Below are positions 4,301-21,274 of a stretch of DNA of 64,000 nt, piece by piece. The DNA comes from Flavobacterium ichthyis. Lineage in GTDB: Bacteria; Bacteroidota; Bacteroidia; Flavobacteriales; Flavobacteriaceae. The stretch lies in contig NZ_JAABLM010000006.1 of assembly GCF_009915155.1 (NCBI RefSeq), positions 62,001 through 126,000 of the forward strand, read 5' to 3'. The notes below the pieces were generated by a model. The model was not told the DNA's origin, did not search any database, and saw only the letters and a list, made by a program, of their open reading frames with translations. The translations under genes were made by a program, and so were the position numbers. The stretch's first letter is position 1. Each line of letters opens with the position of its first letter.

Positions 4301-5224
4301 TTATTTTAAAAAATTGATATTCCGTTGCAATCCGGCAAATTTGGTTCTTTTTACAGCAGAATTTTTAAAAACAGCCCGAAAAGTTTCTTCGGTGATTTCT
4401 TCCCAATCTTTTTTGGAGTATTTCAAAAGATTTTCGTTGGGTTGCAACAAAGGTTCATTGTGCGGTTTTGAGAAACGATTCCACGGACAAACATCTTGGC
4501 AAACATCGCAACCAAACATCCAATCGTCAAATTGTCCTTTTACCTCTTGCGGAATATTTTCTTTCAATTCGATGGTAAAATACGAAATGCACTTGCTGCC
4601 GTCCACCACGTAAGGCGAGACGATGGCTTGTGTGGGACAAGCATCGATACATTTGGTGCAAGAACCGCAATGATCCGTTGTGGGATTGTCGTATTCGAGG
4701 TCTAGATCAACGATGAGTTCGGCAATAAAAAAAAAAGAACCTACTTGTTTGCTCAACAAATTAGCATTTTTTCCTATCCAACCCAAACCGCTTTTGGCAG
4801 CCCAAGCTTTGTCTAAAACAGGAGCCGAATCTACAAAGGCACGACCGGAAACATCGCCGATATTTTCCTGAATGGAATAAAGTAACTCTTTTAATTTTTC
4901 TTTGATGACGTAATGATAATCTTGTCCGTAAGCGTATTTTGAAATTTTGTACGAATCTGGATTTTGCTGTTCGTGCGGGAAATAATTTAACAGCAACGAA
5001 ATCACGCTTTTAGAATCTTCCAATAAAAGAGTCGGGTCGAGGCGTTTGTCAAAATGATTTTCCATATACGACATTTCGCCGTGGTGATTTTGCTTGAGCC
5101 AATTTTCCAATCGTGGCGCTTCTTCTTCTAAAAATCCGGCTTTGGAAATGCCACAGGAAATAAACCCAAGCCGTTTGGCTTCGGATTTGATGAAACTCGT
5201 ATTTTTTGTCTTGCTCTCTATCAT
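4301..5224 (-). CDS. queG: Epoxyqueuosine reductase QueG
   Basis: Cobalamin- and 4Fe-4S-dependent reductase that converts epoxyqueuosine to queuosine in tRNA. The 307-residue protein has the QueG N domain with [20 protein letters not shown], and a ferredoxin part with two cluster motifs, [12 protein letters not shown] and [11 protein letters not shown]. It is shorter than the E. coli enzyme because a C-terminal HEAT-repeat extension is missing; short forms are common. It is convergent with the carboxylase operon, only 20 nt away, with no obvious terminator between. Confidence 0.93.
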
Positions 5225-5238
5225 GCGTCTTTTCTTGC

Positions 5239-5398
5239 AGTTTGCCCTAGCCCTGATTGCAGCGGAAAGCCCGGAGTTTTAAAAATTTTATTTTTTGCTG
5301 CTGCAAAAGAGCGACTCCCGACACTTCGGGAGAAGCTCCTTTTGTGGCTTGCAAAATTAATTTTTAAAACGAGGACTTGTAGCGAAAAGCAGGATTAG
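5239..5398. repeat. Dispersed intergenic element, copy A
   Basis: Fills most of the 192-nt gap between queG and ruvB. Box 1 is GATTGCAGCGGAAAGC (5255-5270) and box 2 is GACTTGTAGCGAAAAGCAGGA (about 5374-5394), in the same orientation. Between them are complementary arms AGTTTTAAAAATT and AATTTTTAAAAC, and a strong inner hairpin CTCCCGA-CACT-TCGGGAG (5315-5332). The left flank (AGTTTGCCCTAGCCC) resembles that of copy C. Similarity was judged by eye against copies B and C. Confidence 0.6.
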
Positions 5399-5416
5399 CT
5401 TCTAAAAAATCTTAAA

Positions 5417-7671: not shown

Positions 7672-7786
7672 TCAAGTATTCTCTTACCCCCGATAGCAGC
7701 AACTATCCTTTTGTGTAGCGTAGCGGAGCAAAAGATAGTGCGGATAGCGGGAACATGGATTATTAAAATGCCTGATGTATTGGTCT
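7672..7786. repeat. Dispersed intergenic element, copy B
   Basis: Lies between the convergent DUF2071 gene and ctaD. Box 1 is CCCCGATAGCAGC (about 7687-7700) and box 2 is GCGGATAGCGGGA (about 7740-7752). Between them the arms ACTATCCTTTTG (7702-7713) and CAAAAGATAGT (7729-7739) pair with a single bulged C, the same bulge as in copy C. The right flank ATTAAAATGCCTGATGTATTG is shared with copy C. Confidence 0.6.
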
Positions 7787-20040: not shown

Positions 20041-20128
20041 GTTTTGTCTGAAAGGTTTTGTGAAATTTAATTATTTTGGTAGAGATTTTCATTATTTTTT
20101 GTAGGCGAATTTTCAAAAAATGCCTGAA

Positions 20129-20257
20129 GTTTTCCAGTAGCCCCGATTGCAGCGGATATCCTTTATTGATTACCTTGGGTGAAACCCGAAGGTAATGGAT
20201 AAAGATTGTAGCGGAAAGCGGGAATTACGATTAAAAAAATGCCTGTTGTGTTGCTCT
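20129..20257. repeat. Dispersed intergenic element, copy C
   Basis: Occupies the middle of the 318-nt gap between the convergent SPOR gene and tsf; the rest of that gap holds one terminator at each end. Box 1 is GATTGCAGCGGATATC (20145-20160), box 2 is GATTGTAGCGGAAAGCGGGA (20204-20223). They enclose ATCCTTTAT against ATAAAGAT (one bulged C) and then ATTACCTT-GGGT-GAA-ACCC-G-AAGGTAAT (20169-20196). The 3' flank ATTAAAAAAATGCCTGTTGTGTTG matches copy B. Confidence 0.65.
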
Positions 20258-21145: not shown

Positions 21146-21178
21146 AATATTTTTTTTGTTTTTAATGTTAAAAGTAAA

Positions 21179-21263
21179 AATTCCAATCTTCAAATCCCAA
21201 ATTCCAACGTTATCAGATGGTTAAAAATCTGATTTTGGAATTTGGAATTCAAAATTTGGAATT
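21179..21263 (-). repeat. Large imperfect inverted repeat in the rpsB-tsf spacer
   Basis: Arms at 21179-21207 and 21235-21263 match as reverse complements at 24 of 29 positions by hand count. The loop itself holds a second hairpin, ATCAGAT-GGTTAAAA-ATCTGAT (21213-21234). In the rpsB-tsf transcript this would be a long stem. It has no T tract and cannot be a normal terminator. Confidence 0.6.
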
Positions 21264-21274
21264 TAAAATTTGAT

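Follow-up and report, generated by a model that had tools for sequence, protein, structure and literature searches.

The window analysed here is a stretch of 64,000 nt, and three of its gaps (copies A, B and C) hold one shared element, at about the positions where the original prediction had placed it. Based on a covariance-model scan of the window against Rfam 15 (cmscan), this element is Flavo-1 (RF01705), for which the original prediction had offered no named family. Copies C and B exceed the gathering score of the family (42 bits), and copy A lies slightly below it. No fourth RF01705 copy was found by cmscan in the window beyond the matches at 20135–20229, 7682–7758 and 5245–5400. The finding is therefore an already named family, which is here extended in structure and reinterpreted in behaviour.

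The full Flavo-1-type element of copy C occupies positions of about 20115–20257 (+) and includes the Rfam match at 20135–20229 (59.4 bits, E 2.1e-10). Its hairpin is built from a 5′ arm, CCCCGATTGCAGCGGATATCCT (20141–20162, +), and a 3′ arm, GATTGTAGCGGAAAGCGGGA (20204–20223, +). By comparison with other copies, the hairpin is flanked by AAAAAATGCCTG boxes at about 20115 and about 20234 (+), and the terminal GCTCT was set at about 20253–20257 (+). The element thus reaches past the hairpin on both sides. In copy B, the hairpin lies at 7682–7758 (+, 45.9 bits), and the element probably extends to about 7787 (AAAATGCCTGATG...GGTCTT). Copy A (5245–5402, +, 40.6 bits) is a long-tip hairpin of the short type with TAGC...GCTTC ends; the gene at 4301–5224 (−) has its start codon some 20 bp away. 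As predicted, boxes face each other across the stem, and a bulged C (ATC-C-TTT against AAAGAT) is present in copies B and C. Copy A lacks this bulge and has a distal stem of about 100 nt. The folding energies of copy C (z −4.3) and copy A (z −5.5) were each below every shuffle, while that of copy B (z −1.55) was not below all shuffles.

The tip of copy A contains a palindrome-like 16-bp unit, TCCCGACACTTCGGGA (5316–5331, +), which recurs within or close to many further copies in the genome. This unit, TCCCGAAGCTTCGGGA or a near variant, represents a second dispersed 16-bp palindrome, nested in or adjoining Flavo-1 copies of this genome (window 5316–5331 and loci L011, L016, L030, L090, L091, L116, L117, L124, L125 and L129). 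In some copies it substitutes for part of a hairpin arm, and it is rare in the other genomes examined. Weak Rfam matches to miRNA and EF3314_EF3315 models in the window were below their gathering scores and were discarded. The weak matches to plant and animal miRNA models coincide with an AT-rich imperfect inverted repeat at 21177–21265 (AATTCCAAATTT...) and are probably due to chance plus this local inverted repeat.

The genome holding the window (G000; 2.86 Mb, 37 contigs) contains 110 RF01705 matches at E ≤ 1, of which 84 are over the cut-off and the best has an E-value of 6e-18, which excludes a chance origin of the element. The expectation that further copies would be found in the same genome was therefore borne out. 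The placement at 3′ ends of genes, claimed for all three copies, does not extend to the genome as a whole: the 73 scored G000 copies include 9 in divergent gaps and 50 in tandem-gene gaps, of which 30 are antisense and 20 sense, with the other 14 in convergent gaps. When tandem-gap copies were pooled, 56 of 91 were antisense (p 0.035). A replication-strand bias in two complete genomes was not significant (56 of 99 copies). No recurrent mobile gene or autonomous partner was found near the copies, whose neighbours are housekeeping genes.

Based on the copies with their flanks, Flavo-1 falls into subfamilies that have one hairpin, HP1, in common. HP1 has arms of about 20 nt, in which UUGNAGYGGAAA faces itself; its distal stem, UCC/GAU, is conserved, whereas its tip is free. 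Type III copies enclose HP1 in P0, a stem of 5 bp, and a second, variable hairpin comes after HP1; at their 3′ end stand P0′, two pyrimidines and then A's. The P0 words vary within one genome with compensation (GCGTG/CACGC, GCGTT/AACGC, GCAAT/ATTGC, GGCTT/AAGCT, GACTT/AAGTT, GAGTT/AACTT and AGGTT/AACCT), and the fraction of paired P0 cells was 0.91 against a maximum of 0.77 when partners were shuffled. The short type A, to which copy A belongs, has AGC/GCT as P0. Type I, which includes copy C, carries additional boxes on both sides (AAAAAATGCC...); the automatic consensus fold of this long element was too weak for helices beyond the hairpin, which makes the limits of the element outside HP1 less certain. 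Lineage-specific subfamilies were found in G033, in G177 and in G361/G565. An A-rich run directly follows the GCTCC/CGCCC terminus in nearly all copies and can pair with the 5′ T-run. The base preceding TAG varies, so that no conserved GTAG tetranucleotide stands beside the hairpin. The element does not have the form of an intrinsic terminator (a GC-rich stem with a T-run behind it), as its stem is preceded by T's and followed by CC and the A-run.

The original prediction had also called for compensatory changes, and these are abundant. Among 159 distinct copies, tested against column shuffles with related copies counted as independent, the double-change score was 37983 (shuffle maximum 9325), and 91% of the pairs were canonical (at most 73% in shuffles). 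At the base, for example, CC/GG is exchanged for GG/CC, and one inner pair occurs as T-A, A-T or G-C. Mismatches of the G.A or A.G kind persist at five loop positions, and at four of these they are found in over 90% of copies (A.G 152/159, G.A 149/159, A.G 153/159 and G.A 147/159). Among non-Watson–Crick pairs, G.T was more frequent than A.C (25 versus 10, p 0.017, one register-shifted pair excluded). The strong covariation of the hairpin pairs and the fixed G.A mismatches show that this strand is constrained as a fold. It should be noted that template-switch correction of quasi-palindromes could yield compensatory changes without selection. Such correction would tend to erase mismatches, and their retention is therefore the better sign that the folded strand matters. 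The constraint on the strand modelled by Rfam fits RNA and single-stranded DNA alike.

Flavo-1 was detected in 65 of 100 sampled genera of Flavobacteriaceae and in 80 of 295 genomes of the class Bacteroidia, where per-genome copy counts are lower bounds. The matches named belong to Flavobacterium, Chryseobacterium, Epilithonimonas, Kaistella, Halpernia and Belliella, and covariance scores in relatives reach 85 bits. Of 31 Flavobacterium genomes, 28 contain 3 to 89 copies and three (G117, G119 and G123) contain none; G177, the closest relative found (85% at leuS), has 105 copies. Searches of 2.9 million viral contigs (by exact pattern), of 72,556 plasmids and of 50,697 phage records gave no Flavo-1 copy. 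An exact search of genomes for the window's own copy gave no match either, although close records may have been excluded from it. Sites beside rluB and beside nrdA, whose copies were selected with an exact-match pattern, are common to several species and combine near-consensus copies with diverged flanks; such conservation could mean function. A copy beside nrdA is also present in CALPUN020000015.1 (L404), a contig labelled as a Bifidobacterium breve MAG, which is likely a mislabelled or contaminated bin. At L363 (G428:C9:30783-31087), two copies lie 224 bp apart within a tandem duplication, each unit with a CCCTGTCAGGGTT hairpin. In G361, G565 and G339, several contigs end at or near Flavo-1 copies, e.g., 5 bp from the end in G565:C124; assembly breaks are expected there, as the copies are near-identical repeats.

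The occupancy of orthologous gaps differs between relatives. In the leuS/ftsX gap, the element is present in G000, G177, G158, G234 and G218 and absent in most other congeners compared. In the same gap of G177 (L190), several copies of another repeat, TCTATAATAATGGCAACCCTA...GGG, adjoin Flavo-1. Among the best 30 copies of G177, 22 had no match in the G000 regions examined, which cover most G000 copies; one of the remainder matches by a single flank, two face element-free G000 gaps, and the rest face filled ones. The G177 copies L274 and L281 lie opposite G000 gaps without the element, and additional pairs of filled and empty gaps were found among relatives. No exact empty site with a target duplication was readable, since the relatives are 6–20% diverged. 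Some of the variation in copy number could stem from loss instead of gain. For L315 (G139) and L290 (G147), one of the two gene flanks around the Flavo-1 copy matches in the reverse direction, which would suit opposite Flavo-1 orientations in one and the same gap of two close species.

At six of six orthologous sites of G000 and G177, the tip was nearer to a same-genome paralog than to the ortholog (in one example, similarity was 0.50 to the ortholog versus 0.84 and 0.96 to paralogs), although the paralog value is the best of many comparisons, which favours paralogs. At three sites of this pair, the size classes differ (142–154 nt versus 78–83 nt). Between G139 and G147 (94%), the tip was kept at two of three sites, and at L289/L314 the hairpin was replaced while the scaffold was unchanged. 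For some G000/G177 pairs, independent insertion at one gap is possible. The data as a whole suggest that within-genome similarity of tips arises by exchange between copies, which is their simplest reading. The original prediction of a dispersed intergenic family with a conserved asymmetric stem and a freely varying tip is supported.

Based on the above results, we moderately favour the view that Flavo-1 is a repeat that disperses non-autonomously and is active as a folded strand, and not an ordinary small RNA gene. It is preferred because the element is intergenic with a weak orientation preference, varies from 0 to 105 copies among congeners, is present or absent at orthologous gaps and was not found in plasmid or phage records. 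Flavo-1 would be a non-coding, chromosomal repeat whose functional form is the folded single strand modelled by Rfam, with its G.A-rich stem. This stem may be recognized by a trans-acting factor, presumably a protein, and copies may be carried to new intergenic sites by an enzyme. Once inserted, they would pass vertically and decay, while hairpin exchange among the copies of one genome would homogenise the family. Such a lifestyle would be REP/REPIN-like, with a mobiliser other than a Y1 (RAYT/IS200-type) transposase. The analysis found neither an autonomous relative nor a mobilising enzyme. A more speculative reading, which we view with considerable doubt, is that such mobile folded elements form a class-wide family and that a novel type of mobiliser, neither Y1/HUH nor DDE, reads the G.A-rich single-strand stem and swaps hairpins between copies.

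Flavo-1 was named by Weinberg et al. in 2010 as a probable RNA of Bacteroidetes, neither cis-regulatory nor a switch (PMC2864571), and RF01705 is typed in Rfam as Gene; sRNA, with a model limited to one hairpin. A conventional structured RNA, either a small RNA or a cis-element in untranslated regions, would account for the strong covariation, the strand-specific G.A stem and the conserved copies beside rluB and nrdA. In addition, several 5′ transcribed regions of F. psychrophilum coincide with Flavo-1 matches (PMC9723704). However, in the same transcriptome the matches were sense or antisense indistinctly, many lay outside transcribed regions, and no clue to the function of Flavo-1 was obtained (PMC9723704). 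An RNA is also at odds with the weak orientation preference of the 73 scored copies, with 84–110 copies adjoining unrelated genes, with three congeners that have none and with tips resembling paralogs. Of the predicted structured RNA or protein-bound hairpin, the constrained fold of this strand therefore stands, whereas a conventional RNA gene or cis-regulator is disfavoured by genomic behaviour and by the transcriptome (PMC9723704), and we regard it as unlikely. The A-rich run after the GCTCC/CGCCC terminus, found even where empty relatives lack it, would suit a SINE-like small RNA that is reverse-transcribed and inserted with an A-rich 3′ end. In the L281 pair, however, the element-free gap also has an A-run, which may therefore be target sequence; the run can moreover pair with the 5′ T-run, and no reverse transcriptase was seen near the copies. 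We regard retroposition as very improbable.

Movement on single-stranded DNA by a RAYT or an IS200-type Y1 (HUH) transposase, as for REP/REPIN elements, would suit imperfect intergenic hairpins in high copy. Across the family, copy number shows a weak association with Y1_Tnp (rho 0.26, p 0.009), and one Y1 gene of G033 lies 1.7 kb from a Flavo-1 copy. Within the genus, however, the association vanishes (rho −0.02), none of 20 Y1 loci has Flavo-1 within 1.5 kb, and the copy-rich genomes G103, G129, G128, G071, G049 and G091 have no Y1_Tnp (PF01797) match, although draft assemblies may miss genes. Nor do the non-significant replication-strand bias and the variable base before TAG, which leaves no GTAG tag, agree with such an enzyme. 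Y1_Tnp as the mobiliser was rejected as unsupported by the family and genus correlations and the flank scan, and a REP/REPIN-type origin appears quite improbable. Flavo-1 is also short and non-coding, with a terminal stem (P0) and subfamily expansions, as would be expected if it were a classical MITE that a DDE transposase moves via terminal inverted repeats. But a DDE enzyme requires fixed ends, whereas the terminal words vary freely with compensation, and the conserved mismatches are meaningful only in a folded strand. No target duplication was identified among relatives diverged by 6–20%, and a MITE is scarcely to be expected here.

Flavo-1 has been a candidate RNA since 2010, with no function assigned. 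Our literature search found no paper that explains it and no described Bacteroidetes repeat that matches the element. The dispersing, tip-exchanging behaviour shifts the question from what an RNA regulates to what moves and homogenises Flavo-1, and it would alter the reading of Rfam matches in Flavobacterium genomes. A new enzyme as the mover would be of general interest.

The STAXI motif (RF01728) offers a parallel, in that it was first called an RNA candidate and its authors also considered a role as folded single-stranded DNA; it consists of pseudoknot repeats near DNA-handling genes and, judged by its description, is unrelated to Flavo-1 in sequence (PMC2864571). With RF01705 itself, the element shares the hairpin, arms, internal loops and phylum. 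However, the Rfam model stops at the hairpin, while the element described here adds P0, an optional second hairpin and the GCTCC/CGCCC end, and the sRNA type of Rfam contrasts with a dispersing repeat with exchanging tips. REP/REPIN elements with RAYT are similar in being high-copy, intergenic, imperfect hairpins that are chromosomal and non-autonomous, with species-specific copy sets; unlike them, Flavo-1 has no GTAG tag, paired inverted REP units or linked RAYT and shows no dependence on Y1_Tnp within the genus. Correia/NEMIS and ERIC are likewise dispersed intergenic hairpin repeats of about 100–150 bp, but they belong to other taxa and have other sequences, and the terminal repeats of NEMIS are fixed.
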